Below are positions 22,785 to 60,240 of a stretch of DNA of 64,000 nucleotides, piece by piece. The notes beneath the pieces are model-generated. The model saw only the letters and a program-made list of their open reading frames with translations. It did no database searches and was not told the DNA's origin. The DNA is from Kordiimonas marina (GTDB taxonomy: Bacteria; Pseudomonadota; Alphaproteobacteria; Sphingomonadales; Kordiimonadaceae): the NCBI RefSeq assembly GCF_023006325.1, contig NZ_JAINDF010000003.1:62001-126000 (forward strand), written 5' to 3'. Each line of letters starts with the position of its first letter. The stretch's first letter is position 1. The position numbers were made by a program, and so were the translations under genes.

Positions 22785-23030
22785 ATGTCAGACAAAAATC
22801 AAAACCTTCAGGACGTCTTTCTCAATGCCGTTCGCAAAACCAAAACGCCGGTTACGGTGTTTCTAGTCAATGGTGTTAAACTGCAGGGTGTTATCACCTG
22901 GTTCGATAACTTCTGCGTACTGTTGCGCCGCGACGGGCATTCCCAGCTTGTTTACAAGCACGCCATTTCCACTGTAATGCCGTCAGGCCCGGTCCAGCTG
23001 TTCGAACCGGAAAAAGACCTAGAAGGTTAA
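22785..23030 (+). CDS. hfq: RNA chaperone Hfq
   Basis: This 81-residue hexameric Sm-like protein pairs small RNAs with mRNAs. Sm1 is seen in [29 protein letters not shown] (first part), with conserved Q8-like and F residues, and Sm2 in [11 protein letters not shown]. The acidic tail is very short, as usual in alphaproteobacteria. hflX starts one base after the stop. Its presence fits possible trans-acting RNAs such as the candidate at 38708-38937. Confidence 0.97.
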
Positions 23031-32190: not shown

Positions 32191-32695
32191 AGGCGCCTAT
32201 ACCGGATGCCCTATGCCTCTTTGCAGCGTATGGTCATGGCTGACGACTCAAATAAACGAAAGGCATTGGTAACGTCCAGTTTGCGCCTGCAAAAGAGAGT
32301 CGGCTGCCTTCTGTTTTGGTATTCATTGCATGAATTTATGCGAAAATGCAAAAACAATGCAAAAAACGGCATTTCCCATACATGTGATCTGATTCTATCA
32401 AGAGGCCCATGTAAATGGCTTGAATCTGCGCCGTATGCCGCATAGTCCCTGGGGCCTATACAATAGGACTGTTGCAGAAATGCTGCATAATTTTGCAAAT
32501 TATATTGAAAAAATGATAATCAAGCTTGCGATTTGCAGAATATGGGGTAACTTTTGCAAACGACCAATAAAAAGGGCGTCGGGGCGGTCTCAGGGAAAGG
32601 TAGCCGTTCCGGTACAGGTCTGATAGGCCCGTTGTCTTTTTGCAAAGAAAAGGCACGCCTTGGTTCTTCGGGAACGCCAATCTTGGGAGAGGGTA
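32191..32695. promoter_or_regulatory. AT-rich control region upstream of the TonB receptor
   Basis: This 505-base spacer has no supported gene. From about 32320 to 32650 it is much more AT-rich than the coding DNA. It carries many TGCAAA/TTTGCA words, at about 32347, 32358, 32484-32497, 32532, 32552-32560 and 32639-32646. The same words recur at the other promoters of this locus, so this is probably the receptor's regulatory region. Confidence 0.6.
32484..32497. promoter_or_regulatory. Candidate LacI-type operator upstream of the TonB receptor
   Basis: TGCATAATTTTGCA differs at one base from the perfect palindrome TGCAAAATTTTGCA found at 45530-45543 in front of the lacI-family gene. The sequence match is observed; regulator binding is an inference. 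Confidence 0.5.
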
Positions 32696-35473
32696 ATGGA
32701 ATCTAAACGAAAGCTTTACCGTTCGCGGCTGATGAGCAGTGCGGCGACGGGTATGGCGCTTGTGCTATTGGCTGCGGGCTCGGTACATGCCCAGGACGCC
32801 GCCGCTAAGGCAAGCGACAAGGCTGCGGCTACGGCCAAGGCTAGCAAAAAGAAAACGCAAGACGTCAATACGCTGGAGGAGATCACCGTAACGGGTCTTC
32901 GCGCCAGTATTGAAAGTTCGCTTCAAAAGAAAAAAGACAATACCTCGATGGTCGAGGCCATCACCGCGGAAGATATCGGCAAGCTGCCGGATACCAGTAT
33001 TGCTGAATCGATCGCGCGCCTGCCGGGCCTTGCCGCCCAGCGCCTTGATGGTCGCGCCAACGTTGTCAGCATCCGTGGCCTCGGCCCGGATTTCACCACC
33101 ACTTTGCTTAATGGCCGCGAGCAGGTGAGCGCCAGCGATAACCGCAGCGTCGAGCTTGACCAATATCCGGCTGAACTGATGAGCGGTGTTGTCGTCTATA
33201 AAACCCCGGATGCCGGCCTTGTCGGTCAGGGTCTTGGCGGCACCATCGATATGCAGACGGTTCGCCCGCTCTCCTATGGCCGCCGCCGGGTGGTCGTTGG
33301 CTTGCGTGGTGAGCTCAATACCTTGGGCAAGCTGAACCCTGACGTATCGAACAAGGGCTATCGCGCCAACTTCACCTACATCGACCAGTTCGCAGATGAC
33401 ACGATCGGTGTTGCGATCGGCTATTCGAAGATGAAAGAGCCGACCCAGGAAAACCGTTGGCAGGCATGGGGTTACCCGACAGCAGCCGACGGCAACCTGG
33501 TTCTGGGTGGTGCCAAGCCTTATGTGAAATCCAACACGCTTGATCGTGACGGCCTGATCGGCGTTCTGGAATATAAGCCCGATGCATCCCTGCATACCCG
33601 GCTTGACCTCTACTATTCCAAATTCAAGGATCACCAGCGCCTGCGCGGCATCGAGCTGCCGCTTGCCTGGTCGGCCGCCCAGCTTCAGCCGGGCTATACT
33701 GTCGACAATGGCCTGATTACGAATGGTACGTTCGATGGCGTCGAAGCCGTGATGCGGAACGATGTTGTCCATCGTGACTCCAGCATCTTCGCTGCTGGCT
33801 GGAACGTCGACTATCAGGTTAATGATAAGTGGTCCGTGAATGCTGACCTCAGCTATTCGCGCCTGAAGAAGTTTGAATCCAATATCGAGATCTACGCCGG
33901 TACTGGCCGTGGTGGTGGTGTTGGCGCGACCGATAACCTCGGCTTCACGCTCAACAGCAACGGTGTCGCTCAATTCGACCCGACCATCGACTATGCCGAC
34001 CCGACCCTGTTCAAGTTGACGGACAGCCAGGGCTGGAACAACTGCGGTGGCCGCCTTGCCAACTGTCAGGATGGCTTCATCAACCACCCGAAAATCCATG
34101 ACGAACTGTATGCTATCCGCCTTGCGGCGAACCGCCAGTTCGAAAAAGGCTTGTTCTCCAGCGTCGATTTCGGTGTCTATTTCTCGCACCGTGAAAAATC
34201 GCTTCTGGACCAGGGTGACGTGCTGACGCTGAAGGATTACCCGACCGACGTTCAGGTTCCGTCGCAGTATATGTATGATCCGGTATCGCTGGGCTTCATC
34301 GGTATTCCGGGCATGGTTAGCTTCGACAGCTACAGCTTCTTCCAGGACGGCAACTACACCCGTACCCGTGAAAGCCTGTGGAACACCGGCCGTCTGACCA
34401 ATACCTGGACCGTGACCGAGAAGGTTATCACGCCGTTCGTGAAAGCCAATATTGACGGCACCTGGGGCAATACCCCGGTTAAAGGCAATATCGGCGTGCA
34501 GGCGGTGCATACTGACCAAAGTTCGCTCGGTAACCGGGTTACCACGAATGACAACGGCCAGACGGTGGTAACGCCGGGCACCTTCGGTGACAAATATTGG
34601 GAAATCCTGCCCAGCTTGAACATGTCGTTCGAAGTGTCGGAAAACCACTTCATCCGCGTCGGTCTGTCCCGGACTCTGGCTCGGGCGCGCCTGGATCAGG
34701 AAAACTCCGGTCTTGGTTATTCCGTGCACAAGTCGGTTAACGGTGAATCACCGTGGAGCGGTTCGGGCGGTAACCCCAACCTGCGGCCGTACCTGGCGGA
34801 CTCGGCTGACCTGGCCTACGAAGCCTATTTCGGCAATGGTGGCGCTGTCTCGGTGGCCGCTTACTATAAGCACCTGGAGACGTGGGTAACGGATCTGCCG
34901 ATCCTGACCGATTTCAGCGGCCTGCCGACCAATGGCATCGACGTCAACAACGTCTATCAGGGCTTTATCACTGTTCCGGTCAACACCGGCGGTGGCAACC
35001 TCTGGGGTGCGGAACTGGCCACGACCTTGCCGGGCACGCTCCTGAGCGAGAAACTGGATGGCTTCGGCAACCAGTTCAGCCTGTCCTACACCAACAGTAA
35101 GGTGAAGATCGACCCGGTTAACACGGCTACCATGCCGGGTCTGTCGCACTGGGTGCTGAACGACACGCTCTACTATGAAAAGAACGGCTTCCAAGCCCGT
35201 GTCAGCGGCCGCTACCGGACTGCATTCCTGGCCGAAGTCGCGGCGCTCAGCCTGAGCCGTACGCTGGTTGAAGCCCGGTCGGAATTCCTGGTCGATGCTC
35301 AAATTGGCTATGAGTTCCAGAGCGGTCCGTTCGATGGTCTGTCGATCCTGCTGCAGGGTAAGAACCTGACCAACCGTCCGTTCATCACCTACCTGAACAA
35401 TGATATCCGTCAGGTTCGTGACTATCAGGAATACGGTCGGAACATCATGTTGGGTGTGACTTACGACTTCTAA
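32696..35473 (+). CDS. TonB-dependent receptor, Xanthomonas/Caulobacter type
   Basis: This 925-residue outer-membrane transporter probably imports maltodextrin-like glycans using TonB energy. It has a signal peptide ending VHA-QD (about 1-33), a Lys/Ala-rich linker, a TonB-box-like ITVTGLR, a plug domain (KLPDTSIAESIARLPGL, VSIRGLGPDFTTTLLNGRE) and a long beta-barrel ending in a C-terminal aromatic (GVTYDF). The substrate is inferred from the adjacent amylase genes. ATG 32696 follows gggagaggg. An intrinsic terminator follows the stop, separating it from the halogenase. Confidence 0.93.
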   Translation: MESKRKLYRSRLMSSAATGMALVLLAAGSVHAQDAAAKASDKAAATAKASKKKTQDVNTLEEITVTGLRASIESSLQKKKDNTSMVEAITAEDIGKLPDTSIAESIARLPGLAAQRLDGRANVVSIRGLGPDFTTTLLNGREQVSASDNRSVELDQYPAELMSGVVVYKTPDAGLVGQGLGGTIDMQTVRPLSYGRRRVVVGLRGELNTLGKLNPDVSNKGYRANFTYIDQFADDTIGVAIGYSKMKEPTQENRWQAWGYPTAADGNLVLGGAKPYVKSNTLDRDGLIGVLEYKPDASLHTRLDLYYSKFKDHQRLRGIELPLAWSAAQLQPGYTVDNGLITNGTFDGVEAVMRNDVVHRDSSIFAAGWNVDYQVNDKWSVNADLSYSRLKKFESNIEIYAGTGRGGGVGATDNLGFTLNSNGVAQFDPTIDYADPTLFKLTDSQGWNNCGGRLANCQDGFINHPKIHDELYAIRLAANRQFEKGLFSSVDFGVYFSHREKSLLDQGDVLTLKDYPTDVQVPSQYMYDPVSLGFIGIPGMVSFDSYSFFQDGNYTRTRESLWNTGRLTNTWTVTEKVITPFVKANIDGTWGNTPVKGNIGVQAVHTDQSSLGNRVTTNDNGQTVVTPGTFGDKYWEILPSLNMSFEVSENHFIRVGLSRTLARARLDQENSGLGYSVHKSVNGESPWSGSGGNPNLRPYLADSADLAYEAYFGNGGAVSVAAYYKHLETWVTDLPILTDFSGLPTNGIDVNNVYQGFITVPVNTGGGNLWGAELATTLPGTLLSEKLDGFGNQFSLSYTNSKVKIDPVNTATMPGLSHWVLNDTLYYEKNGFQARVSGRYRTAFLAEVAALSLSRTLVEARSEFLVDAQIGYEFQSGPFDGLSILLQGKNLTNRPFITYLNNDIRQVRDYQEYGRNIMLGVTYDF

Positions 35474-35604: not shown

Positions 35605-37113
35605 ATGACCGATAACAGGATCAAGGATGTCGTGATTGTAGGTGGTGGCACGGCGGGGTGGATGGCAGCTTCGGCGCTTTCCTATGCCATGCCGGGGCTC
35701 CTGAACATCCGCCTGATTGAATCGGATGCCATCGGCACCGTCGGTGTCGGTGAAGCGACCATCCCGCAGATCCGGCTTTTTAACCGCCTGGTTGAGCTGG
35801 ATGAAGACGAATTCCTGAAAGCCACGCACGGCACCTTCAAGCTGGGCATCCAGTTTCAGAACTGGAACAAGCTTGGGGATTGTTACATGCATGCCTTTGG
35901 CTCCATCGGGCGCGGGCTTGGCATGCTGGAGTTTGAGAATTACTGGCTGAAGGCGCGGGCCGAAGGTGTGGCGGGCAGCCTGTGGGACTATTCCCTCAAC
36001 GATACGGCGGCGCTGGCCGGAAAAATGGCGCGGTTCGACACCATTCCGGGCACCAATATGCAGGGGATATCCTATGCTTTCCATTTTGACGCCACCTTGT
36101 ATGCCCGGTTTCTCAGGAAAAGGGCTGAGGCCAAGGGGGTAACGCGCACCGAAGGCAAAATCGTCGACGTCACCTTACGGGGCAGCGACGGTTTCATTGA
36201 AAGCGTGACGCTGGAAAATGGTACGGAGATCGGCGGCGACCTGTTTATCGACTGCTCGGGCTTCCGCGGGCTTCTGATCGAAGACGCCCTGAAGACGGGC
36301 TATGACGATTGGACCCATTGGCTGCCGTGTGACCGGGCGATCGCCGTCCCCAGTGAAAATGTTTCGGCGCCAAGGCCTTATACCCAGTCTATCGCGCATA
36401 CGGCAGGGTGGCAGTGGCGTATCCCGCTCCAGCACCGGACGGGGAATGGCCATGTCTTCTGCAGTGATTATATGAGCGAGGACGAAGCGACCGCGATCCT
36501 GCTTTCGAACCTGGAAGGCAAGCCGCTTGCGGACCCGCGGGTGTTGAAGTTTACCACCGGGAAACGGCGGAAATTCTGGAACAAGAACTGTATCGCGCTC
36601 GGGCTTTCCAGCGGTTTCATGGAGCCCTTGGAATCCACCAGTATTCACCTGATCCAGTCTGGCCTCAGCCGTCTGCTGTCGCTGTTCCCGGACAAGAGTT
36701 TCGCCCAGGCGGAAATTGATGAATATAACCGGCAGGCGGATTTCGAGTTCGAGCGTATCCGCGACTTCCTGATTTTGCATTATCATGCAAATGAGCGTAC
36801 GGATTCCGACTTCTGGACCCGCTGCCGCGAAATGGACATCCCGGAAACCCTTCAGCACAAGATCGACCTGTTTAGGTCAACAGGCCGTATTTTCCGGGAG
36901 CACGAAGAGCTGTTCACCGAACTTGGCTGGTTCCAGGTGATGATCGGGCAGGGGATTACCCCTGAAGCTTACCACCCGATGGCGGATATGCTGACGCGCG
37001 ATCAGCTCAAGGGTTTCATGGGGGACCTCAAGACCATCGTCGACCGCACGGTTGCCCAGCTGCCGTCACAGGAAGATTTTATCCGGGCTCACTGCGCCAT
37101 AGCACGGCAATAG
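35605..37113 (+). CDS. Flavin-dependent tryptophan-type halogenase, copy 1
   Basis: This 502-residue protein resembles PrnA/RebH-type FADH2-dependent halogenases. It has the FAD motif GGGTAGWM at 13-20, the catalytic lysine K79 in GTFKLGIQF, the signature GWQWRIP at 268-274, and the active-site glutamate E343 in MEPLESTS. All catalytic residues appear intact. Enzymes next to TonB receptors in Brevundimonas and Xanthomonas halogenate free indole or other arenes in vitro, so free tryptophan is not assured as substrate. SD gggaaggg precedes the ATG. Its 3' end overlaps copy 2 by 25 bases. Confidence 0.92.
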
Positions 37114-38618
37114 TGCGCGATATATTGCTCATGGGTCGGCATGACCTCGGCGGCTTCCTGCATGATGCGGCGCAGGCTCTTTAGGTTGTCTGCGGCCGGG
37201 ACTTGCGGGCGCATGTCCACAAGCGGGTCATAATGCTCTGGCCATATATCCTGCCCAATGAAGACAGCAAGCCAGCTCGGGTTCTGGAACAGTTCCAGAT
37301 CTTTCGCGACGATGCGGCCGTAGGCGCGGAAATGATCGATCTTGTATTGAAGCGTCTCCGGGATTTCCATCGCGCCGGTATATTGCCACAAGGGGCTGTC
37401 GCGCCTTTCCGTTGCTTTATAGTGCAGGATCAGGAAATCGCGCGTGCGTTCGTATTCCGCTTTGGTGATACGGTTATATTCCGTGGCGAGAAGCGGGTTC
37501 ATGTCCCGATCCGGGAACAGCGCCAATAGGCGTCGGATGCCTGACTGGATAAGGTGCAGGCTGGTCGATTCAAGTGGTTCCATGAACCCCGCTGAAAGCC
37601 CGATCGCAACACAGTTCTTGTTCCAAAACTGCTTGCGGCGGCCTGTGGTGAAGCGGAGGAGGCGCGGGTCGGCGAGCGGCTTGCCGTCAAGGTTCGAGAG
37701 CAGGGTCCCGGTCGCGTCCTCATCGGAGATATACTGGCTGCAATAAACATGGCCATTGCCGATGCGGTGCTGGAGCGGAATGCGCCACTGCCAGCCGGCC
37801 TTATGGGCGATCGACTTGGTGTAAGGCGTGAAGTCGCCGCCGCTTGCGCATGGGACAGCGACGGCGCGGTCGCACGGCAGCCAGCGGGTCCAGTCCTCAT
37901 AGCCTGTCTGCAGCGTCTTTTCGATCAACAGGCCATAAAAGCCGGTGCAATCGACAAAAAAGTCAGCCTCTACCGTGCGGCCATCCGCGAGCGTGACACT
38001 TTCAATGAAGCCGGTCTCGCCTGCAAGCGAGACATCGGTCACCTTGCCTTCGATCCGCTCAACGCCGCGTTCAGTGGCATAGGAGCGCAGAAGCTTGGCG
38101 TAGAGAATGGCGTCAAAATGGTAGGCGTAATCGTAGGTGGACTGCACAAGCCGTGGGTCATCGGTCGGGCGGTTGAAGCGCCCCCGGGCCGCGGCGGCCC
38201 ACGCCATGGAATAGTCGTCCAGGCTGGATGTGTCGCCATGCGCCCGTTCGCGCAGCCAATAGTGATAGAGCGGAATAGCGTCGAAATCGGCACCATATTG
38301 GCCGAACGGATGGAAATAGGCGTGGCCCTTGCGCGTCCAGTCGATGAATTGGATGCCCAGTTTGAAGCTGCCGTTCGTGGCTGCGACGAAGACATTCTCA
38401 TCGATGCCCAGGCTTTGGTTGAACAGCTTGATCGGGGGGATGGTCGCTTCGCCAACGCCAATCACGCCGATTTCTTCGGATTCGATCAGGGTAATGTCGC
38501 AGCTGGTGCCGATGGCATTGGCAAGGGCCGCTGCGGTCATCCAGCCTGCGGATCCGCCACCGATGATGGCAATGCGGCGCAGTGCCTGCGGATTAGTTTC
38601 TGCTGCCTTGTTGGACAC
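37089..38618 (-). CDS. Flavin-dependent tryptophan-type halogenase, copy 2
   Basis: This 509-residue paralogue of copy 1 faces it on the other strand. It shows the FAD motif GGGSAGWM at 20-27, catalytic K86 in [16 protein letters not shown] at 275-281, and E350 in MEPLESTS. The start is GTG 38618 with gggggag upstream. Overlap of the two 3' ends means full-length transcripts would be antisense to each other for at least 25 bases. The reductase that supplies FADH2 is not in the window. About 90 bases upstream on the same strand is the terminator of a structured RNA candidate. Confidence 0.92.
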
Positions 38619-38707
38619 TGAACTTTCTCCCCCACTCGTTCCCTAGTGCGTAGCGTCGGCCATGCTTCGCCTGACCTTAAGGTATGGTGCCATGGTTAGG
38701 GGTATTT

Positions 38708-38742
38708 AAAAAGCACCCTGGCAGACGGAATCTGCCAGGGTG
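38708..38742 (-). terminator. Intrinsic terminator facing left, upstream of halogenase copy 2
   Basis: A perfect 12-bp stem (38714-38725 with 38731-38742) and a 5-base loop are followed on the minus strand by C and five U (plus A-run 38708-38712). It lies about 90 bases before the GTG of halogenase copy 2, on the same strand. Confidence 0.85.
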
Positions 38743-38937
38743 AAGATAGCTCTTTCAGGTTCATGCCTTGCGGGAGGGAAGCCTGCTGCAGGCATGAAGT
38801 CTTCCTAAAAGAGGCCCCTAAACTTTGGTCGTCGAAGAGGAAAGCTGCGTCGACCCCACTTAACTCATACTGCGCCCATTGGGCGTAAATCCCCCAATAC
38901 AGGCCTGTGTCTCCAACAGGACATGCTGGACCTGTAT
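38708..38937 (-). ncRNA. Candidate structured RNA or riboregulated leader upstream of halogenase copy 2
   Basis: Read on the minus strand, this stretch folds into four successive hairpins and ends in an intrinsic terminator. Arms (plus coordinates) are 897-908 with 916-937 (two-part stem with a 10-base bulge), 873-877 with 881-885, 827-831 with 851-855, and a long stem 750-767 with 791-813 (all plus 38,000). In the long stem one of 18 pairs is G-U on the minus strand but would be C-A on the plus strand, which fixes the strand. It could be a 230-base small RNA or an attenuator leader. It matches no riboswitch that I recognise. Confidence 0.55.
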
Positions 38938-39151
38938 CGTTTCCGTATTTTGCAAAAATAACGTAAAAAATGCAAAAATCAATAAATTATGTAATTTGTT
39001 GCATTATAATTTGGTGGTTGCAGCAGGAGAGGCCCTGCGCGGCTTTACGTAGCGTTCGGCGCCGAGTCAGCGTTACTATAGACAAACCATCCAGTTTTCC
39101 CGTCAATCAGAGGCCTGTTGCCCTGTTGCAAAAATAAAGTAATTTCACTTT

Positions 39152-39175
39152 GAATTTGCAAAAAGTTTGCAATTC
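39152..39175. promoter_or_regulatory. Candidate LacI-type operator at the symporter promoter
   Basis: TTGCAAA-AAG-TTTGCAA forms a 7-bp inverted repeat with matching outer bases (GAAT on the left, TTC on the right). It overlaps the -35 box of the promoter at 39167-39196, the expected place for a repressor site. Confidence 0.55.
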
Positions 39176-39196
39176 AGGCCTTTTCTCACTTATAAG
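39167..39196 (+). promoter_or_regulatory. Likely sigma-70 promoter for the symporter-amylase-glucosidase operon
   Basis: TTGCAA at 39167-39172 and TATAAG at 39191-39196 are spaced 18 bases apart, 55 bases upstream of the start codon. The -35 box lies inside the inverted repeat described at 39152-39175. Confidence 0.55.
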
Positions 39197-39250
39197 AAAT
39201 AAGAATCATTTCGATGCTTGGGAACAGCATCTGGGAAAAGGGGAATTGGG

Positions 39251-40831
39251 GTGAGCGAGTTTCATCTGGGTCAGCTCGATCTGGTCGTAATCGGCCTGTA
39301 TTTTGTATTGGTTGTTGGCATGGCCTGGGCATTGTCCGGCCGCCAGGATACCGCGGAAGATTACTTTCTGGCCGGACGGCGTTTCACCTGGCCGTTCATC
39401 GGTCTGTCGCTTTATGCATCCAACATCTCCGGGACGACACTTGTTGGCCTTGCGGGGGATGCGTACGCAACCGGGATCTCGGTCTATAACTATGAATGGC
39501 TGGCGGCGCTGGTGTTGGCGCTCTTCGCCATTTTCGTGATGCCCTTCATCCTCCGGGCCAAGGTCTATACGGTTCCGGAATATCTGGAACGCCGCTATGA
39601 CCGCCGTGCCCGGGTATATTTCTCCGGCCTTACACTGTTCCTGACCGTTGTCATCGACACGTCGGCCACGCTTTATGCCGGTGGCCTTATCCTCAAGATG
39701 ATCTTCCCGGACATCCCGATCTCGCTCATGATCGCGGTTCTGGCAATTTTCGCAGGCGCCTATACCATCGTCGGCGGTTTGGCTGCGGTTATCATCACCG
39801 ACGCCGTGCAGGCCGTTATCCTGCTTATCGGTGCCGTCGTGGTAGCTTGGTCCGCCTTCGACCATATCGGCAGCTGGTCCCAGCTTATGCATGCTGTTCC
39901 GCATGAAAAGCTGAGCCTGATCAGGCCGATGGGCGACCCCGGCGTTCCGTGGCTGGGCCTCATTCTTGGCGCGCCGCTTCTCGGCTTCTATTTCTGGTGT
40001 ACCAACCAGTTCATGGTGCAGCGGGTGCTTTCCGCCAAGTCGCTTGAACATGGCCGCTGGGGCGCGCTGTTCGCCGGTTTCATCAAGCTGCCGGGGCTGT
40101 TCCTGATGGTGCTGCCGGGCACGGCCGCCATCATCCTGCTGCCGAACCTGTCGAACCCGGACCTTGTGTATCCGACGCTGATCTTCAAGTTCCTGCCGGC
40201 GGGCCTTCTGGGCCTCGTGCTTGCGGGCTTCCTGGCGGCGATGATGTCGCAGATCGATAGCGCCATGAACTCGGCCTCGACCCTCGTCACCATGGACTTT
40301 GTGCGCATCTGGAAGCCGGAGATCACCGAAAGCGACATGGTCAAGGTTGGCCGCTGGTCCACCTTCACCGTGCTTGTACTCGCCATCCTGTGGGCACCTC
40401 AAATTGAACGTTTCGGTTCGCTGTTCAAATATCTGCAGACGATCCTGTCGTATGCGGTTACGCCGACCCTGGCGCTGTTCCTGGTCGGCAGCTTCTGGCG
40501 CCGCGCCAACGGGACCGGCGGTTTCATCGCGCTGATGAGCGGTACCGCGCTCGGTGTCCTGATGTTCCTGATGATCGAGGTCTGGCACCTCTTCAGCCTG
40601 CACTTCCTGCTTGTAACGCCGATTGTGTTCGGTTTCTCCTGCCTGATGCTGGTTGTCGGCAGCCTGATGACCGCGCCGTCCGAAAAGGATCCGACGCCTT
40701 ATATCTGGACTGTCGCAAGCTATCATGAAGAGACGGCCGAACTGAAACAGCGTCCGATGTGGCAGAACTACCGTGTTCAGGCGCTTGTCCTGATGGCCAT
40801 GGCCGCGGCCATTGTGATTTCCTTCTGGTAA
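39251..40831 (+). CDS. Sodium/solute symporter family (SSS) transporter, probable sugar
   Basis: This 526-residue inner-membrane protein has about 13-14 membrane segments. SSS hallmarks are SLYASNISGTTLVGLAGDAYATG near the N-terminus, YTVPEYLERRYDRRARVY, the GGLAAVIITDAVQAVILL segment and the AAMMSQIDSAMNSASTLVTMDF block. Family members such as SGLT take up sugars with Na+. Here maltose or glucose is inferred from the co-transcribed amylase and glucosidase. The GTG start at 39251 begins VSEFHLGQLD; the track's longer frame from 39218 is less likely. It is 16 bases before the amylase. Confidence 0.88.
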   Translation: MSEFHLGQLDLVVIGLYFVLVVGMAWALSGRQDTAEDYFLAGRRFTWPFIGLSLYASNISGTTLVGLAGDAYATGISVYNYEWLAALVLALFAIFVMPFILRAKVYTVPEYLERRYDRRARVYFSGLTLFLTVVIDTSATLYAGGLILKMIFPDIPISLMIAVLAIFAGAYTIVGGLAAVIITDAVQAVILLIGAVVVAWSAFDHIGSWSQLMHAVPHEKLSLIRPMGDPGVPWLGLILGAPLLGFYFWCTNQFMVQRVLSAKSLEHGRWGALFAGFIKLPGLFLMVLPGTAAIILLPNLSNPDLVYPTLIFKFLPAGLLGLVLAGFLAAMMSQIDSAMNSASTLVTMDFVRIWKPEITESDMVKVGRWSTFTVLVLAILWAPQIERFGSLFKYLQTILSYAVTPTLALFLVGSFWRRANGTGGFIALMSGTALGVLMFLMIEVWHLFSLHFLLVTPIVFGFSCLMLVVGSLMTAPSEKDPTPYIWTVASYHEETAELKQRPMWQNYRVQALVLMAMAAAIVISFW

Positions 40832-40847: not shown

Positions 40848-42713
40848 ATGACCTTCTGGACCAAAGCACGCAAAGCCTTCTTCCTGGGGACCGCGCTCAC
40901 CTGCGCGCCGCTCATCCCGACCGCCTCCCTTCAGGCGGCCGACGGTGGCGCGGTCCATTCCCTCAAGCCTTACGCCGACAGGCCAGCCACCGATGACGTG
41001 ATCTATTTCGTCATGCCGGACCGGTTCGCGAATGGCGATCCATCCAATGATACCGGCGGTATCGCAGGTGGCGCGAAGGTGAATGGCTTCGACCCGACCA
41101 ACAAGGGCTTCTACCACGGCGGGGATATCAAGGGGCTGATCAGCAAGCTGGATTATCTGCAGGATATGGGCGTGACCGCCATCTGGTTCACGCCGATCTT
41201 CAAGAACAAAGCCGTGCAGGGCGATGCCAAGCACCTTTCAGCGGGCTATCATGGCTACTGGATTACCGATTTCACCAGTGTTGACCCGCACCTCGGTACC
41301 AATGACGACCTGAAGGCGTTGGTTACGGAAGCGCACAAGCGCAACATGAAGGTGATCTTCGATATCATCGTCAACCACACGGCGGATGTGATCCAGTACC
41401 GGGAGTGCACGGGCGAGGGTAACCCTGGTGGTGTGACGGCGCCTGGCTGCAAATACCGGTCGCTTGCGGACTATCCCTACACCCATAAGGGCGGCAAGAC
41501 CGGTCCTGCCATCAACAAGGGCTTTGCGGGCGACGGTCCTGCGCACCAGACAGAGGCGAACTTCGCCAAGCTCACCAACCCGGATTATGCCTACACGCCC
41601 TATGTACCGAAGGGTGAGGAACATATCAAGAAGCCGGACTGGCTGAACAATGTCCTCTATTACCACAACCGCGGCAACACGACCTTCCAGGGCGAGAACT
41701 CGCTCTATGGTGATTTCGGTGGCCTCGATGATGTGTTCACGGAAAATCCGGCGGTCGTGAAGGGCTTCACCAAGCTTTACGAAAGCTGGATCAAAAACTT
41801 TAAGATAGACGGCTACCGCATTGATACTGCACGTCATGTGAATGATAGCTTCTGGCAGAAATTCTCCCCGGCCATCATCAAATATGCCGCCAAGGAAGGC
41901 ATCCCGCATTTCTATATGTTCGGGGAGGTCTATGACGGAGATCCGAAGCGTCTGTCCCACTTTACGACGGTGGCCAAGCTGCCGGCGGTTCTGGACTTCG
42001 GCTTCCAGGGGGCTGTCACGCAGGTGCTGGCGCACGACAAGGGCACGGATGTCCTTGCCAAGCTCTTCTCGGAAGACAGCCTTTATGGCCCCGGTGTCGC
42101 GGATACGCTGCCGACCTTCCTCGGCAACCATGACATGGGCCGGTTTGGTCATTTCCTGCGGGAAGCACACCCGCATATGAGCGACGCCGAGATGATGAAA
42201 CGCACCATTCTCGGCAACGCGCTGATGTTCTTCGCGCGCGGTGTGCCGGTTATCTATTATGGTGATGAGCAGGGCTTTGTGGGCGATGGCGGCGATCAGG
42301 ACGCGCGGGAAGATATGTTCCCCAGCAAGGTCGCCAGCTATAACGACAACAAGCTGATCGGCACGGACGCCACCACGGCGGTAGACAATTTCAACGAAAA
42401 TCACCCGCTTTACCGGTCGCTGAAGGCGATGGCGGCGCTTTATCACGCCAACCCGGCGCTCCGCCAGGGCAAGCAGAAAGTGCTGATGAGCAGCCCGAAA
42501 CCTGGGCTTTTCGTCTTCAGCCGGACCGACAAGGCCTCCGGTGAAACGGTCCTGGTGGTGGTTAACACTGCCAAAGAAGCAATGACATATAAAACCGGCG
42601 CGGCGCTGACGCCGATGACGGATGGCTGCACGCTGGCAAGCGACAAGGGGGAAACCGACCTCCACCTTGCGCCGCTTAGCTATGCTGTGTGCCGGATGGG
42701 GAAAAATAACTGA
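40848..42713 (+). CDS. Secreted alpha-amylase family protein (GH13)
   Basis: This 621-residue glycoside hydrolase probably cleaves starch-derived oligosaccharides in the periplasm. A signal peptide covers about 1-30 (basic start, hydrophobic core, LQA-A cleavage). The GH13 regions are FDIIVNHT (171-178), the nucleophile D326 in GYRIDTARH, acid/base E360 in FGEVYD, and D429 in LGNHDMGRFGH. A C-terminal beta-sandwich follows. The mature enzyme has few cysteines. The stop overlaps the next start as TGATG, so translation is coupled. Confidence 0.93.
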   Translation: MTFWTKARKAFFLGTALTCAPLIPTASLQAADGGAVHSLKPYADRPATDDVIYFVMPDRFANGDPSNDTGGIAGGAKVNGFDPTNKGFYHGGDIKGLISKLDYLQDMGVTAIWFTPIFKNKAVQGDAKHLSAGYHGYWITDFTSVDPHLGTNDDLKALVTEAHKRNMKVIFDIIVNHTADVIQYRECTGEGNPGGVTAPGCKYRSLADYPYTHKGGKTGPAINKGFAGDGPAHQTEANFAKLTNPDYAYTPYVPKGEEHIKKPDWLNNVLYYHNRGNTTFQGENSLYGDFGGLDDVFTENPAVVKGFTKLYESWIKNFKIDGYRIDTARHVNDSFWQKFSPAIIKYAAKEGIPHFYMFGEVYDGDPKRLSHFTTVAKLPAVLDFGFQGAVTQVLAHDKGTDVLAKLFSEDSLYGPGVADTLPTFLGNHDMGRFGHFLREAHPHMSDAEMMKRTILGNALMFFARGVPVIYYGDEQGFVGDGGDQDAREDMFPSKVASYNDNKLIGTDATTAVDNFNENHPLYRSLKAMAALYHANPALRQGKQKVLMSSPKPGLFVFSRTDKASGETVLVVVNTAKEAMTYKTGAALTPMTDGCTLASDKGETDLHLAPLSYAVCRMGKNN

Positions 42714-44335
42714 TGCAGCAACAGGATAATAAACACCGAACCCGGGTTATCGCTGGCGACGACTGGTGGCGCGGTGCGGTCATCTACCAGATTTATCCGC
42801 GCAGCTTTGCGGACAGCAACGGTGACGGTGTCGGAGACCTCAAGGGCATCACCGCCCGGCTCAAGCACGTTGCCTCGCTCGGTGTTGACGGTATCTGGCT
42901 GTCGCCTTTCTTCACCTCGCCAATGAAGGATTTCGGCTATGACGTCGCCGATTTTTGCGGTGTCGACCCGATTTTCGGCTCCCTCGAAGATTTTGATGAG
43001 CTTCTGGAGACGGCACACCGGCTTGGCCTCAAGGTCATCATCGATCAGGTTTATAGCCATACTTCGGATCAGCACGCCTGGTTCCAGGCCAGCCGCGAAG
43101 GCCGGGATAGCGACAAGGCTGACTGGTATATCTGGGCTGATGCCCGGCCGGACGGCACGCCGCCGTCGAACTGGCAGTCGGTCTTCATGGGCCCGGCCTG
43201 GACCTTCGATTCCCGCCGTGGTCAATATTACCTGCACAATTTCCTCTCAAGCCAGCCGGACCTGAATGTCCATAACCCGGCGGTTCAGAAGGCGCTTCTG
43301 GATACGGCACGCTTCTGGTTGGATCGTGGTGTCGATGGCTTCAGGCTTGATGCGGTCAATTTCTATATGCATGACCCGGAATTCCGGGACAATCCGGCGC
43401 TTGCAGGGGCAAAGGGACACAAACCTTTCGACCTGCAGGACCATCTTTATAACCAGTCGCACCCGGATATTCCCAAGTTCCTGGAACGTATCCGCGGGCT
43501 GCTGGACGAGTATCCTGAAAGCTTTGCCGTCGCTGAAGTCGGCGGTGAGCGTGCGCTTGAGGAAATGCAGCTTTATACCGAGGGTGGCAAGCGCCTGCAG
43601 ACCGCCTACAGCTTTGAGTTCCTTGAGGCTGATACGCTTTCCGCGGCGGTGATCCGGGACGCTGTTGCCGCGTGGCCGCAGGCCGCGGGGACCGGCTGGC
43701 CGTCCTTCACCTTCTCGAACCATGACCGGCCGCGGGCTGTCACGCGCTGGGCACGGTCTGAATCCGAGGAGCTGGACCCACGCTTCGCGATTTTCCTCAA
43801 TACGCTTCTGTGTTCGCTGCGGGGCAGCATTTGCCTGTACCAGGGTGAAGAGGTCGGCTTGCCGCAGGGCAGGGTGCCGTTCGAACGCCTGGTGGACCCC
43901 GAAGCCATCGCCAACTGGCCGGATACGCTGGGGCGGGATGGTACACGGACACCGATCCCGTGGCTCAAGGGTGTGCCGCACGCCGGGTTCTCCGAAGCCG
44001 AACCCTGGCTGCCGGTTGATGAACGCCATCATGATTTCGCGATCGACGCCCAGGAGAAAGACCCCAAGTCGCCACTTCATGCGCTTCGGGACTTCCTGGC
44101 TTTCCGGCACAAGGAGTTGGCGCTCGTCAAAGGCAGCATCAGCTTCCTTGATACCGCTGAACCGGTTCTGGCTTTCGTGCGGGAGCATGAGGGCCGCAAG
44201 CTGTTGTGCGTCTTCAACCTGGGCACCGAAGCGGCCGAGTGGGCTGAGGGCAATGGGATGCTGCTCTACAGTGTCAACGAAGCCGAACCCGGCAAGGCAT
44301 TGCCGCCGATCAGCGGCTATATCGCAGCGCTCTAA
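42713..44335 (+). CDS. Cytosolic alpha-glucosidase (GH13, oligo-1,6-/alpha-1,4-glucosidase type)
   Basis: This 540-residue enzyme has no signal peptide and should release glucose from imported maltodextrins. It opens with WWRGAVIYQIYPRSFADSNGDGVGDL. Catalytic residues are nucleophile D213 in GFRLDAVNF, acid/base E275 in FAVAEVGG and D338 in FSNHDRPR. The middle region GDLKGITARLKHVASLGVDGIWLSPFF is typical of the GH13 glucosidase group. The exact linkage preference is not readable by eye. It is the last gene of the operon and meets a terminator 9 bases after the stop. Confidence 0.93.
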   Translation: MQQQDNKHRTRVIAGDDWWRGAVIYQIYPRSFADSNGDGVGDLKGITARLKHVASLGVDGIWLSPFFTSPMKDFGYDVADFCGVDPIFGSLEDFDELLETAHRLGLKVIIDQVYSHTSDQHAWFQASREGRDSDKADWYIWADARPDGTPPSNWQSVFMGPAWTFDSRRGQYYLHNFLSSQPDLNVHNPAVQKALLDTARFWLDRGVDGFRLDAVNFYMHDPEFRDNPALAGAKGHKPFDLQDHLYNQSHPDIPKFLERIRGLLDEYPESFAVAEVGGERALEEMQLYTEGGKRLQTAYSFEFLEADTLSAAVIRDAVAAWPQAAGTGWPSFTFSNHDRPRAVTRWARSESEELDPRFAIFLNTLLCSLRGSICLYQGEEVGLPQGRVPFERLVDPEAIANWPDTLGRDGTRTPIPWLKGVPHAGFSEAEPWLPVDERHHDFAIDAQEKDPKSPLHALRDFLAFRHKELALVKGSISFLDTAEPVLAFVREHEGRKLLCVFNLGTEAAEWAEGNGMLLYSVNEAEPGKALPPISGYIAAL

Positions 44336-44389: not shown

Positions 44390-45427
44390 TTAAGCGCCGC
44401 AGCTTTCGCGCACGATCAGTTCGGTCGGCAGCAGCTCTGAGCGGACTTTTTCACCCTCGGCGAGCCGGAGCGCCTTGCTGACAAGCCTGCGGCCTGCACG
44501 GGCGACATCCTGGCGGATCGTGGTGAGCGCGGGTGTGCTGTAGGCGGAGATGCGGACATCGTCATAGCCGATGACCGAAACATCGCCCGGCACGGACAGG
44601 CCGTTGCGCATCAACGCGCGGATAGCGCCCATGGCGATGACGTCGGCGGCGGCGACAACACCATCGAATTTCACGCCGGTTTCCATCAATACCTCAATGG
44701 TCTCCATGGCGGATTCAAACGAGAAAGCGGCGTTGCGAACGAGGTTCTCATCCAGGGGCACGCCAGCTTCCTTGAGGGCGTCGCAATATCCTTCATAGCG
44801 CAAGGTGACCTCAGGGGCTTCGATATCGCCAATGAAGGCGACCTTCTTGCGGCCAAGGCGCAAAAGGTGGCTCGCAGCCATATAGCCGCCGCGCTTGTTG
44901 TCGGACCCGATTGAGCAATAGGCCTGGTTTTCAAGCTGAGCGCCCCAAACCACGAACGGCGCGCCGGTGCGGGCAAGTTGGTTCAATGGCTCATGCAGCA
45001 AGCTCTGGCCGATGATGATGAAGGCTTCAGCGCGGCGGTCATGGACGGCCTTTTCCAGGTCCTTGAAATCCCGCGGGCTGTGGTGGGAGATCAGGAAGTC
45101 GCAGTCATTTTCCTTCATGGCATCGCCGATGCCGCCAATGAGGTCCAGGTAGAAAGCGTCGGAAATCCGGGCTTCCTTGCCTTGAGGCAGCGGAATGATC
45201 AGCTCCAGCGTACGGTAGTTGGCCTGGGGGCCGGGCTCCTCCTTACGGCGGAGCACCATGTTGTTTTCTTCGACAATTGCCAGAATGCGCTGCTTGGTAG
45301 CATCCGAGACCAGGGGGCTGTCACTGAGCGCGCGGGAGACTGTTGAAATCGACACACCGGCGATCTCTGCAACATCTTCAAGACGCACAGGTTTACGTGC
45401 GGTCGTATCTTTCTTGGCCGATTTCAT
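44390..45427 (-). CDS. LacI-family transcriptional regulator
   Basis: This 345-residue regulator has an N-terminal helix-turn-helix (VRLEDVAEIAGVSISTVSRALSDSPLVSD) and hinge, then a periplasmic-binding-protein-like sensor domain that ends in RTELIVRESCGA-type sequence (TELIVRESCGA). It probably represses the alpha-glucan genes until a sugar binds. The operator candidates at 45516-45547, 39152-39175 and 32484-32497 fit autoregulation plus local control. ATG 45427 gives MKSAKKD; an in-frame ATG at 45448 is a possible alternative. It converges with the glucosidase gene. Confidence 0.92.
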   Translation of the reverse strand: MKSAKKDTTARKPVRLEDVAEIAGVSISTVSRALSDSPLVSDATKQRILAIVEENNMVLRRKEEPGPQANYRTLELIIPLPQGKEARISDAFYLDLIGGIGDAMKENDCDFLISHHSPRDFKDLEKAVHDRRAEAFIIIGQSLLHEPLNQLARTGAPFVVWGAQLENQAYCSIGSDNKRGGYMAASHLLRLGRKKVAFIGDIEAPEVTLRYEGYCDALKEAGVPLDENLVRNAAFSFESAMETIEVLMETGVKFDGVVAAADVIAMGAIRALMRNGLSVPGDVSVIGYDDVRISAYSTPALTTIRQDVARAGRRLVSKALRLAEGEKVRSELLPTELIVRESCGA

Positions 45428-45515: not shown

Positions 45516-45547
45516 GGATTGCAAAAATATGCAAAATTTTGCAATCC
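45516..45547. promoter_or_regulatory. Palindromic operator candidate upstream of the lacI-type gene
   Basis: Perfect 11-base arms GGATTGCAAAA (45516-45526) and TTTTGCAATCC (45537-45547) are separated by 10 bases. The nested perfect palindrome TGCAAAATTTTGCA lies at 45530-45543. It is 89 bases upstream of the regulator start. Confidence 0.65.
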
Positions 45548-53620: not shown

Positions 53621-55611
<1,991 letters not shown>

Positions 55612-55622
55612 GGCATAGGGCG

Positions 55623-55913
55623 ATGACCGGTAAAAACGGCGAAAAGGACGCCAAGGATATGCACAAGGCGGTCGAGCTTAGAGAGCAGCGCCGTACGCTG
55701 TGGGAGCGTGAGGGCGAACGCTCCTTGTGGCAGAATATGTCGATGATCGGGGCACTTGGCTGGCTGATCATCGTGCCGACGCTTCTGGGCGTCTTTGTCG
55801 GCCGTTGGCTTGATGGCCTGTTTGGCACCAACATCCAGCTTACGGGTGCCTGCCTGTTCCTTGGTGTGGCCTTCGGCTGTTACCTCGCATGGCAAAGGGT
55901 GGGGAAAGAATGA
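55623..55913 (+). CDS. atpQ: N-ATPase accessory membrane subunit AtpQ (AtpI-like)
   Basis: This 96-residue protein has a charged start (KDAKDMHKAVELREQRRTLWERE) and two hydrophobic segments (about 42-62 and 71-90). It corresponds to the AtpI-like AtpQ of N-ATPase operons, thought to help assemble the c-ring or admit ions. ATG 55623 is preceded by aggcatagggcg; a GTG at 55608 is an in-frame alternative. It overlaps atpR by 4 bases. Confidence 0.8.
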   Translation: MTGKNGEKDAKDMHKAVELREQRRTLWEREGERSLWQNMSMIGALGWLIIVPTLLGVFVGRWLDGLFGTNIQLTGACLFLGVAFGCYLAWQRVGKE

Positions 55914-56182
55914 ACGCACACATTGGACCTGAGCTTATCCTTTATGCCGTGGGCGGGCTTGCGCTGGGCATCTGTTTCTTTGGCCTGCTTCTGTGGTCGG
56001 TGCGGCTGCAGGCATCGGGGGCGGCGCTCACACGTATTTTGCCGCTTTACCTCAGCCGGTATGTGATAGCAGGCGGGAGTTTCTGGCTGATCGCGCAGGC
56101 AGGGGCGCTGCCGCTCCTGACCGCGCTCGCCGGGTTCCTGATCGGCCGCTACGTCGTCCAGCGTAAGGGGATGCCGTCATGA
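55910..56182 (+). CDS. atpR: N-ATPase accessory membrane subunit AtpR
   Basis: This 90-residue protein has three hydrophobic segments (about 8-30, 38-60, 64-82) and corresponds to AtpR, a subunit known only from N-ATPase operons. Conserved basic residues lie in the loops (RLQASG, LSRYVIAGG, GRYVVQRK). Overlap with atpQ and with atpB by 4 bases each supports translational coupling. Confidence 0.82.
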   Translation: MNAHIGPELILYAVGGLALGICFFGLLLWSVRLQASGAALTRILPLYLSRYVIAGGSFWLIAQAGALPLLTALAGFLIGRYVVQRKGMPS

Positions 56183-56856
56183 GCCTGAGCACCAGCCCAC
56201 TTGCCGAAGATATCCTGTTCCATATCGGGCCGATCCCGATCAGCCAGCCTGTGGTGACGACATGGGGCATCATGGCCGCACTCAGCTTCATCTGCTGGCT
56301 GGGCTTCAGGCGCCCGCGTGTGGAAGCCGGGACGCTTCAGACCGTGCTCGAGATCATCGTCGAAGCCCTTGAGAAGCAGGTGAAGGATATCGTCCGGCGT
56401 GACCCGTGGCCCTTTGTGCCGCTTCTGGCGACGCTGTTCATCTTCCTTGCGGTTGCCAACCTGTCCGCCATCGTGCCGGGCTTGAAACCGCCGACCGGGC
56501 ATATCGAAACCCCGGCAGCCCTTGCGGCGCTGGTGTTCCTGTCGGTGCATTATTTCGGCATTAGGACCAAAGGGTTCGCGGGCTATGTGCGCCATTATGT
56601 GAAACCGAGCCCCTTGCTTTTGCCCCTGAATATTCTGTCGGAATTCACCCGCGTCTTCTCACTGATGATCCGGCTGTTCGGCAATATGATGAGCCATGAG
56701 TTCGTCATCGCCATCGTCGTGTTCCTGGCCGGGCTTTTCATGCCGATCCCCTTCATGCTTCTGGGTGTGCTGATCGGGATCGTCCAGGCCTATATTTTCA
56801 CTGTTCTCGCCGCCGTGTTTATCGGCGCCGCCATCGGCAGCGTTGAAGCCGGATAA
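56179..56856 (+). CDS. atpB: N-type ATPase subunit a
   Basis: This 225-residue membrane subunit forms the ion half-channels. The essential arginine is R165 in FSLMIRLFGNMMSHEF. The sequence ends with the conserved LIGIVQAYIFTVLAAVFIGAAIG. Five membrane segments are visible. Length is typical of the N-type a subunit. It overlaps atpR by ATGA. Confidence 0.93.
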   Translation: MSLSTSPLAEDILFHIGPIPISQPVVTTWGIMAALSFICWLGFRRPRVEAGTLQTVLEIIVEALEKQVKDIVRRDPWPFVPLLATLFIFLAVANLSAIVPGLKPPTGHIETPAALAALVFLSVHYFGIRTKGFAGYVRHYVKPSPLLLPLNILSEFTRVFSLMIRLFGNMMSHEFVIAIVVFLAGLFMPIPFMLLGVLIGIVQAYIFTVLAAVFIGAAIGSVEAG

Positions 56857-56872
56857 AGGAGGAAATGTCAGC

Positions 56873-57115
56873 ATGACAATACAAATGATCAGTATTCTCG
56901 GGGCGGCGATTGCCGTGTCGTTCGGGGCCATTGGGCCAGCCCTCGGTGAAGGCCGGGCGGTTGCCTCAGCCATGGATGCCATCGCGCGGCAGCCTGAAGC
57001 GGCGGGGACGATCTCCCGCACGCTGTTTGTCGGCCTCGCCATGATCGAAACCATGGCGATCTACTGTCTCGTGATCGCGCTCCTGCTACTTTATGCCAAC
57101 CCGTTCGTGAGCTAA
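56873..57115 (+). CDS. atpE: N-type ATPase subunit c with two carboxylates
   Basis: This 80-residue rotor protein has two helices joined by the ARQPEA loop (38-43). The ion site contains E26 (first helix, in GEGRAV) and E59 (second helix, in IETMAIY), plus T60 and Y64. E26 is in the position of Q32 of Ilyobacter tartaricus c, so the site is a double-carboxylate. N-ATPases were first proposed as Na+ pumps, but a Burkholderia N-type c-ring with this motif was reported as H+-selective, so the coupling ion is open. SD aaaggagg lies 10 bases upstream. Confidence 0.92.
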   Translation: MTIQMISILGAAIAVSFGAIGPALGEGRAVASAMDAIARQPEAAGTISRTLFVGLAMIETMAIYCLVIALLLLYANPFVS

Positions 57116-57118
57116 CGC

Positions 57119-57860
57119 ATGACCATAGACTGGTGGACATTCGCGCTGCAGGCGCTCAATTTCCTGATCCTGGTATGGCTGCTCAAGCGGCTTCTCTATA
57201 AGCCTGTGAAGGAGATTATCGCCAAGCGGAAGGCGCTTGCCGATGAGGCCTTCGCCGAGGCTGAAAAGCGGGAGGCCGAGGCCGATGTTGCCAAAAAGCA
57301 GTATGAGGACGGCAAGGCCGCGCTCGCAGGCGAACGCCAGGCGCTGCTCAAGAAGCTGCATGAGGAAGCGGACGCCGAACGCCAGGCGACGATCAAGGAA
57401 GCCAAGGCAGAAGCTGCCAAGATCATCGATGACGCCAAGGCGGCCATCACCAAGGAACGGGGGGCCGCCCTCAAGGACCTGCAGGGCGAGATGAGCGGCC
57501 TAGCGCTTGATATGGCGGCAGGGCTGATCAAACGGGCGGACCTCGATATTCCGCAAAGTGCCTTTCTGGAGCGGATTGACGCGCATCTGAAGACTTTACC
57601 GAAAGCTGAGATGGAAAGCCTGCGTGCTGATCTGACGGAAGAGGGTGCTGAACTCACCGTGGTGACAGCCCAGGCGCTGAAAGCTGCCGAAAAGAAACAG
57701 TGGCTCTCCCGCCTGCAGGCGCACATGCCAGGTGTTGAAACAGTAGCCTTCAAAACCCGGGCGGATATCCTGGGTGGCGCTGAGCTTCATGCCCCCCATG
57801 CCGTGATCCGCTTCACCTGGGCTGATCAGTTGGCCAAAGCCAGGGAGGCCATGAGCGGTG

Positions 57861-57874
<14 letters not shown>
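57119..57874 (+). CDS. atpF: N-type ATPase subunit b with delta-like extension
   Basis: This 251-residue protein has one N-terminal membrane segment (WTFALQALNFLILVWLLKRLL), a long charged coiled coil (about 30-140, Ala/Glu/Lys/Arg-rich), and a C-terminal part of about 100 residues resembling delta. N-ATPase operons lack atpH, and the extended b subunit is known to cover that role. It overlaps the following gene by 14 bases. Confidence 0.9.
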
Positions 57875-59393
<1,519 letters not shown>

Positions 59394-59394
59394 C

Positions 59395-60240
59395 ATGGAA
59401 CAGCTGCCCCGCCTGCAAAAGCGTATCGAAAGCCTGAAGGAGCTGCAGGACCTTATCCATGCCCTGCGGGCGTTGGCGGCGTCACACGTGCAACAGGCAC
59501 AGGGCGCGCTCGAAGGCATCCGGCAATATGTCAGCGTGGTGGAGGATGCGATCCTTGAAGGGGCCGCCTTGCTGCCGGAGACGGGTCGTGGTGACGGCAA
59601 CCACGCCACGGGCAACCAGGACCTTCTGCTCGTCGTCTGCTCCGAACACGGGTTTGTCGGCGGCTTCAACGAAAAGCTGCTGAACCATGCCTTGGCTGAG
59701 CGCCTGCCGGATGAGAAACTGGTTATTGTTGGTCAACGCGGGGCGGGGCTTGCCGAAGAACGCAGCCTTGAAAGCGTGAAGCAATTCCCGATGGCGACCC
59801 ATGTTGGCGGTGTCCTTGCCGTTGCGCGCCGCGTGGCGGATTATATGGCGACCGCCGTCAGGGCTCGTGTGGTTTACGGCCGGTATGAGAAAGGCGGTCG
59901 TTATGATGTGGCGCTCAGAAGCATCCTCCCGCTTGACCCTGTGCTCCTCAAAGGCAAGGCCGGTCCAAAACCGCCCCTGCATCACCTTGACCCGGAAACC
60001 CTCATCACCCGCCTTGCCAATGAATATCTGCTGGCTGAGATCACCGGTGCGATCATGGAATCGCTCGCCAGTGAAAACGGCGCCCGGCTTGGGGTGATGG
60101 AATCCGCCGATCATAACATCAGCGACAAGCTCGATGGCTTCGAGCGGCAGGAACATAGCCTGAGGCAGGAAAGCATCACCTCCGAGATGCTGGATGTGGT
60201 GACGGGCTCGGAAGCCATCATGTCCTCAGGCGCTATATGA
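59395..60240 (+). CDS. atpG: N-type ATPase subunit gamma
   Basis: This 281-residue central-stalk protein has the N-terminal coiled coil (RLQKRIESLKELQDLIHALRALAASHVQQAQ) and the C-terminal coiled coil with EITGAIMESLASENGARLGVMESADHN. The middle has a Rossmann-like part with CSEHGFVGGFNEKLLNHAL. N-type gamma is known to be divergent. ATG 59395 starts one base after atpA. It is the last gene of the nine-gene operon. Confidence 0.92.
   Translation: MEQLPRLQKRIESLKELQDLIHALRALAASHVQQAQGALEGIRQYVSVVEDAILEGAALLPETGRGDGNHATGNQDLLLVVCSEHGFVGGFNEKLLNHALAERLPDEKLVIVGQRGAGLAEERSLESVKQFPMATHVGGVLAVARRVADYMATAVRARVVYGRYEKGGRYDVALRSILPLDPVLLKGKAGPKPPLHHLDPETLITRLANEYLLAEITGAIMESLASENGARLGVMESADHNISDKLDGFERQEHSLRQESITSEMLDVVTGSEAIMSSGAI

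Follow-up and report, generated by a model that had tools for sequence, protein, structure and literature searches.

Genomic context of the locus

We analyzed a stretch of 64,000 nucleotides of the Kordiimonas marina genome (contig NZ_JAINDF010000003.1, positions 62,001 to 126,000; hereafter the window), in which a putative RNA is read leftward between a halogenase gene and a divergent sugar operon. The features that matter for the following are listed below, with positions counted from the first letter of the window.

22785..23030, plus strand: Hfq (PF17209)
32288..32646, strand not given: TTTGCA/TGCAAA boxes, TonB-receptor promoter
32696..35473, plus strand: TonB-dependent receptor (TIGR01782)
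37089..38618, minus strand: halogenase copy 2 (PF04820); only in the window and in genome G014 does the RNA precede it
38708..38940, minus strand: proposed full-length sRNA, its 5' end put near 38940 from position
38708..38825, minus strand: conserved RNA core (38825-38708), 118 bases, the 3' portion, present in five genomes of the genus
38708..38742, minus strand: intrinsic terminator, 13 pairs and U-tract (T5 tail)
38750..38813, minus strand: core hairpin (outer stem 38813-38804 with 38759-38750, inner stem and apical part)
38772..38781, minus strand: CUUCCCUCCC segment, candidate seed against Shine-Dalgarno sequences, with CCUCCC in five of five copies
38811..38821, minus strand: TTAGGGGCCTC box, invariant in five of five copies
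38949..38976, minus strand: TTTGCA boxes just upstream of the RNA
39127..39171, strand not given: TTTGCA/TGCAAA boxes, divergent symporter promoter
39251..40831, plus strand: sodium:solute symporter (PF00474), divergent from the RNA
40848..42713, plus strand: enzyme of the alpha-amylase family (PF00128), whose ribosome-binding site is a candidate target
42713..44335, plus strand: alpha-glucosidase-like enzyme (PF00128)
44390..45427, minus strand: LacI-family regulator that presumably reads the TTTGCA boxes
45520..45543, strand not given: TTTGCA/TGCAAA boxes ahead of the LacI gene, a weak cluster (their number is equalled or exceeded in 17 of 500 shuffles)

The two halogenase genes of the window, at 35605-37113 (plus) and 37089-38618 (minus), run toward each other and share 25 bases at their 3' ends, an arrangement that is also found in G014 (locus L133). 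Further away, at 53648-60240, a set of ATP synthase-like frames (beta, a, b, alpha and gamma by eye) resembles, by sight only, an extra N-type ATPase operon.

Fold, terminator and strand

A sequence-only reading of this DNA had described a series of minus-strand hairpins ending in a terminator, some 90 bases before halogenase copy 2. The terminator stands and is separated by 89 bases from the GTG of the halogenase at 38618; the hairpins of the 5' half (38940-38826) do not, as they are within chance (z -0.75, 41 of 200 shuffles) and their sequence is not conserved between the window and G014. The minus strand from 38937 to 38708 has a predicted folding energy of -90 kcal/mol (z -2.86; one of 200 shuffles equals it), and the 3' part alone (38830-38700) reaches z -5.45, with none of 200 shuffles as stable; the same part of the G014 copy is at z only -1.45 (15 of 200 shuffles as good). 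The core is made up of a 10-bp stem, an inner stem, the CUUCCCUCCC segment and the terminator. The long stem with a 5-base bulge that had been described was recovered as 10 + 8 pairs (18) flanking the bulge, and includes the U-G pair that had been taken to support a leftward transcript.

Neither the terminator nor the stability of the fold settles the matter by itself: a lax terminator scan found one site against a shuffle mean of 0.8, so that the terminator alone is no proof, and the core folds about as well on the plus strand (-58.9) as on the minus strand (-56.2). The direction suggested by the single U-G pair agrees with the paired cells of the five homologues described below, which comprise 16 G-U cells against one A-C cell. 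Since G-U pairs would break on the opposite strand, the RNA sense is the minus strand. Judged from the sequences, the case for the RNA rests on its conservation, its covariation and this count over five homologues; on these grounds, and with the strand given by the G-U/A-C cells and the U-tract, the RNA is real and read leftward on the minus strand.

Homologues and covariation

Searching the DNA of 29 genomes of the family, the own genome among them, yielded one further match, in G014 (82% identity over the 3' part), where the RNA is likewise placed between symporter and halogenase. A covariance model of these two sequences (R1), run over the same 29 genomes, added three: G016 (62.1 bits), G017 (58 bits) and G010 (44.7 bits), the last of which is identical over 4,479 bp to the Kordiimonas gwangyangensis DSM 19435 record. 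With the five-sequence model (R2), a scan of the order (396 genomes) recovered the five known copies, none with an E-value above 3.1e-20, and then a match at 3.2e-4 (G246); a scan of the class (385 genomes) gave the own genome, followed by a match at E 1.8e-5 (G654). A gapped pattern occurred in five of the 396 genomes and its reversed control in none. The RNA is thus present in 5 of 19 genomes of the genus and in none of the 10 other family genomes examined, some genomes being incomplete.

Several weaker matches were discarded as relatives. Of the 40 order and class loci L090-L129, 39 were readable (L100 was not) and none of these 39 carried GGGGCCTC; by their sequence they look like generic terminators. 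The matches of the two-sequence model in Marinicaulis (L029 at E 9.8e-5, L030 and L032) coincide with the terminator and 3' end of a TonB-receptor frame and were treated as chance; L010 (E 0.045) and L027 (E 4.9) are further weak matches of that model, in which the exact motif GGGGCCTCTTT is absent. Plasmid records gave no match to the RNA.

The earlier reading had named compensatory changes in homologues as the evidence to look for, and these were found. As the inner stem of the five copies came out misaligned with MAFFT alone, a structure-guided alignment was used. In it 97.8% of 134 cells are paired (reached by none of 500 shuffles), double-sided changes occur in 10 of 28 pairs (reached by 2 of 500) and the covariation score is matched by none of 500, figures that lean toward structure because the alignment was fitted to a model built from two of the five copies, and that are to be read with the caveat that kindred sequences may beat such shuffles without structure and that the five copies all belong to one genus. 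Sliding the partners, as a control, lowered the pairing to 39-51%. The double changes are unevenly spread: five of six pairs in the inner stem, two of ten in the outer stem and three of twelve in the terminator.

What all five copies have in common is UUAGGGGCCUCUUU, a middle segment bearing CCUCCC, AUCUUCACCC and the terminator, and as in trans-acting Hfq-type sRNAs each copy ends in a terminator hairpin with at least five T. The segment itself reads CUUCCCUCCC in the window and G014, GACCUCCCAC in G016, GCCCUCCCGC in G017 and UACCUCCCAA in G010. It is predicted to be only partly unpaired (mean probability 0.63 in the window, 0.47-0.85 across the five copies). The 5' domain is variable, with extra CU-rich runs in four of the five copies, and in the full-length minimum-energy folds the core stem is present in four copies and absent in G010.

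The UUAGGGGCC box that precedes the core stem is invariant in all five (38811-38821 in the window; L003, L085, L086 and L087), and its Gs are predicted to be only partly unpaired. The box might pair with the CCCU of the apical segment as a pseudoknot. A small protein encoded inside the RNA was considered and set aside: short frames are present, and these are by eye mutually dissimilar.

The RNA is not a conserved halogenase leader

Two functions had been put forward for the RNA, a small RNA using Hfq or a leader that attenuates the halogenase. For the leader, in which the RNA would be the 5' end of the mRNA of halogenase copy 2 and its terminator would attenuate that gene, speaks the position in the window and in G014, where 89 and about 60 bases, respectively, separate the terminator from the start of the halogenase on the same strand, which leaves scant room for another promoter; some same-strand frame is moreover found within about 150 nt downstream in four of the five copies. 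The genes behind the RNA nevertheless differ between the genomic contexts. In G016 the gene after the terminator is a convergent AraC-type regulator, whose frame ends about 20 nt beyond the terminator, and in G010 (a 327-aa frame, about 94 nt past the terminator) and G017 (about 150 nt) the same-strand frames have no Pfam match and no similarity to window proteins at 1e-8. A conserved position before the gene, as expected of a cis-acting attenuator or riboswitch of the halogenase, is seen in two of the five copies, the other three not being beside a halogenase. G016 and G010 do possess halogenase-2 orthologs (69% and 68%), on contigs other than that of the RNA; the two-sequence model found no second good copy of the RNA in either genome, and the G010 ortholog sits directly behind another open reading frame, without the RNA. 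The exact motif GGGGCCTCTTT was found at none of 80 named halogenase loci; the model search of these loci took 79 of the 80, L005 being omitted with only 10 bases before the gene. On the contexts, the separate orthologs and the motif count, we rejected the leader as a conserved function, and consider it unlikely that the RNA acts as a cis-acting attenuator of halogenase copy 2. Of the two functions put forward, the small RNA is supported by the compensatory changes, the terminator and the strand, by an Hfq gene in the window and by the lack of any Rfam match at gathering.

A milder variant adds to the small RNA instead of excluding it: the sRNA terminator would be leaky, and in the window and G014 the same promoter would also give halogenase mRNA. 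Such a dual RNA, which is inapplicable to the other three contexts, fits the shared strand and short distance in these two copies; in the window, moreover, the stretch from the terminator to the halogenase has no TTTGCA box, and 38600-39300 no promoter-like site. The halogenase of the window and G014 may be read through from the promoter of the RNA, a possibility that we regard as open to considerable doubt.

Sugar genes and TTTGCA boxes around the RNA

The sugar-gene neighbourhood is more constant across the copies than the downstream genes. The window and G014 have the symporter-amylase-glucosidase operon divergent from the RNA, G016 and G017 a divergent alpha-glucosidase beside it, and G010 and G017 a glucokinase within about 1.1 kb. 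G010 fits the sugar context least, because its divergent neighbour is a RimB-like peptidase (below the curated cut-off). The glucosidase was detected at E 1e-100 in 17 of the 29 family genomes, including all five RNA genomes, and is without the RNA in 12 of the 17, some genomes being incomplete; the four genomes with 72-100% glucosidase identity are the four with RNA-glucosidase linkage.

The control regions are marked by TTTGCA/TGCAAA boxes. In the window there are 10 at the TonB-receptor promoter and 7 in the RNA-symporter gap (in both cases reached by none of 500 shuffles), and 3 before the LacI gene; the window as a whole is not enriched, its 32 boxes comparing with 38.8 on average over 5 shuffles. 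The RNA control regions of the other genomes contain 8 (G010), 4 (G016), 5 (G017) and 6 (G014) boxes, and the dinucleotide shuffles that reach the RNA-region count are, out of 500, none for the window, G010 and G017, 7 for G016 and 1 for G014. The TonB promoter of G014 has 8 boxes (0 of 500 shuffles). Every scanned control region also includes the promoter of the divergent gene, and the boxes are therefore not the RNA's alone. The boxes are a candidate LacI-type operator, and the LacI-family protein encoded at 44390-45427 presumably reads them. Some of the boxes form inverted pairs at the promoters of alpha-glucan genes. A sigma-70-like promoter for the RNA was not found in a scan of 38600-39300.

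Candidate targets

Predicted pairing was explored by ranking 48 frames of the window, some of which are antisense shadows; the ranking is exploratory, and CCUCCC fits any strong Shine-Dalgarno sequence. The LacI mRNA came first (-23.0; fraction of shuffled regions as good 0.000) and the amylase third; the predicted pairing at its ribosome-binding site is worth -20.5 kcal/mol in the window, where a fraction of 0.004 among 500 shuffled regions does as well, and -18.8 in G014. The symporter is absent from the ranking, an antisense frame having been kept in its place, and reached -15.1 when scored apart. LacI was dropped as a target, as its strong pairing in the window is absent in G014 (-4.3, with a start codon chosen by eye). 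The TonB receptor, halogenase 1 and the glucosidase pair no better than shuffles (fractions 0.21, 0.47 and 0.38). The amylase mRNA of the adjoining operon is, in these predictions, the best candidate target seen.

Proposed role

We consider it probable that the RNA is a free-standing, trans-acting sRNA of the alpha-glucan regulon that pairs through CCUCCC with Shine-Dalgarno sequences, our confidence being slightly lowered by the three of five shuffle-tested gene regions that pair no better than shuffles. The scheme would be as follows: i) a promoter of its own, located in the control region that also serves the divergent symporter-amylase-glucosidase operon, would give a leftward sRNA of about 230 nt; ii) transcription of the sRNA would be tied to the supply of alpha-glucan or glucose through a LacI-type regulator; iii) the sRNA would end at its own intrinsic terminator, the U-tail of which would be bound by Hfq; and iv) CCUCCC, together with the CU-rich 5' stretches in four of the five copies, would pair with the Shine-Dalgarno sequences of targets and block their translation. 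The elements of this scheme that we count as observed are the co-varying minus-strand RNA, its conservation outside the halogenase context, the boxes that occur also at the TonB-receptor promoter and the apical CCUCCC. The convergent downstream gene in G016 and the varied contexts suggest, from position only, that the RNA is a transcription unit of its own.

What emerges is an RNA family that has structural support and matches nothing in Rfam 15. It lies next to a carbohydrate regulon in which a TonB receptor and flavin-dependent halogenases occur, comes with a defined segment, defined relatives and a candidate target, and corrects the reading as a halogenase leader. Literature searches on small RNAs in Kordiimonas returned only a paper on coral bacteria, and a search on small RNAs of sugar loci returned none.

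Comparison with known RNA families and systems

The earlier reading had assigned the layout to no riboswitch or small-RNA family, and Rfam 15 has no match at gathering scores in the whole window; weak matches, among them those to NsiR1, P15 and anti-hemB, lie far under gathering and were dismissed. The family that invites comparison is alphaR8 (MmgR of Sinorhizobium, SisA-D of Caulobacter; RF00519, suhB), which like the present RNA is alphaproteobacterial, with a CU-rich anti-Shine-Dalgarno motif, an intrinsic terminator and a tie to carbon metabolism. According to PMC12559287, its members SisA-D and MmgR share an anti-Shine-Dalgarno 10-mer core, UUUCCUCCCU, SisA has TonB-receptor mRNAs as targets and MmgR acts on carbon storage. 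The Caulobacter RNA CrfA sponges SisA-D through a G/A-rich loop.

A member or a diverged copy of this family would account for the common CU-rich stretch and terminator. Its RF00519 model, however, finds nothing at positions 38500-39300 of the window with a cut-off of E 10, nor at the loci of the five homologues with a cut-off of E 5, while the same kind of search, as a positive control, finds an mmgR/suhB elsewhere in the own genome (L166, C18:562195) with 58.3 bits against a gathering score of 41. In addition the present RNA is about 230 nt long versus 77 model positions, and its motif is situated in the apical part of the 18-pair hairpin, not in a single-stranded linker; the 10-nt single-stranded core of alphaR8 was not found in the five copies, the segments of which lie inside the core hairpin. 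Membership is thus very improbable, and the RNA would resemble alphaR8/MmgR in its proposed mode of action. In most species the alphaR8/MmgR gene adjoins that of an N-formylglutamate amidohydrolase, and a frame resembling the latter (by eye) lies in G010 about 8 kb from the RNA. The mmgR at L166 adjoins a frame resembling a TonB receptor, and a sub-threshold mmgR/suhB match (L165, C18:467537; 26.5 bits) is found beside an alpha-amylase-like frame, both by eye.

As in CrfA, which PMC12559287 describes as a carbon-status sRNA in a network with TonB-receptor mRNAs, the RNA might sequester alphaR8 siblings, given that the genome encodes at least one mmgR near a TonB-receptor-like frame (by eye) and that the RNA has an invariant G-rich box, UUAGGGG. 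The UUAGGGGCC box is complementary to no more than about 4 bases of the alphaR8 core (by eye), and the conserved apical segment, CU-rich unlike the G/A-rich loop of CrfA, has the wrong sign for a sponge, which makes such a role extremely improbable.

The pairing motif of the RNA is CU-rich, in distinction from Spot 42 (RF00021), to which there is no significant similarity: the cmscan match in G010 is weak and non-significant (24.1 bits, gathering 80, E 0.6). Spot 42 exerts discoordinate control of a sugar operon. The present RNA is likewise linked to sugar genes, and the control of its sugar operon would likewise be discoordinate if the amylase were the target. A more elaborate picture, to which we give little credence in its entirety, is that of an independently evolved Spot 42 analogue: an sRNA that shares its operator boxes with the alpha-glucan operon, from which it is transcribed divergently, and that pairs with the Shine-Dalgarno sequence of a middle gene (amylase) and so would form a feed-forward brake uncoupling uptake from hydrolysis, while leaky termination would drive the halogenase in two genomes.
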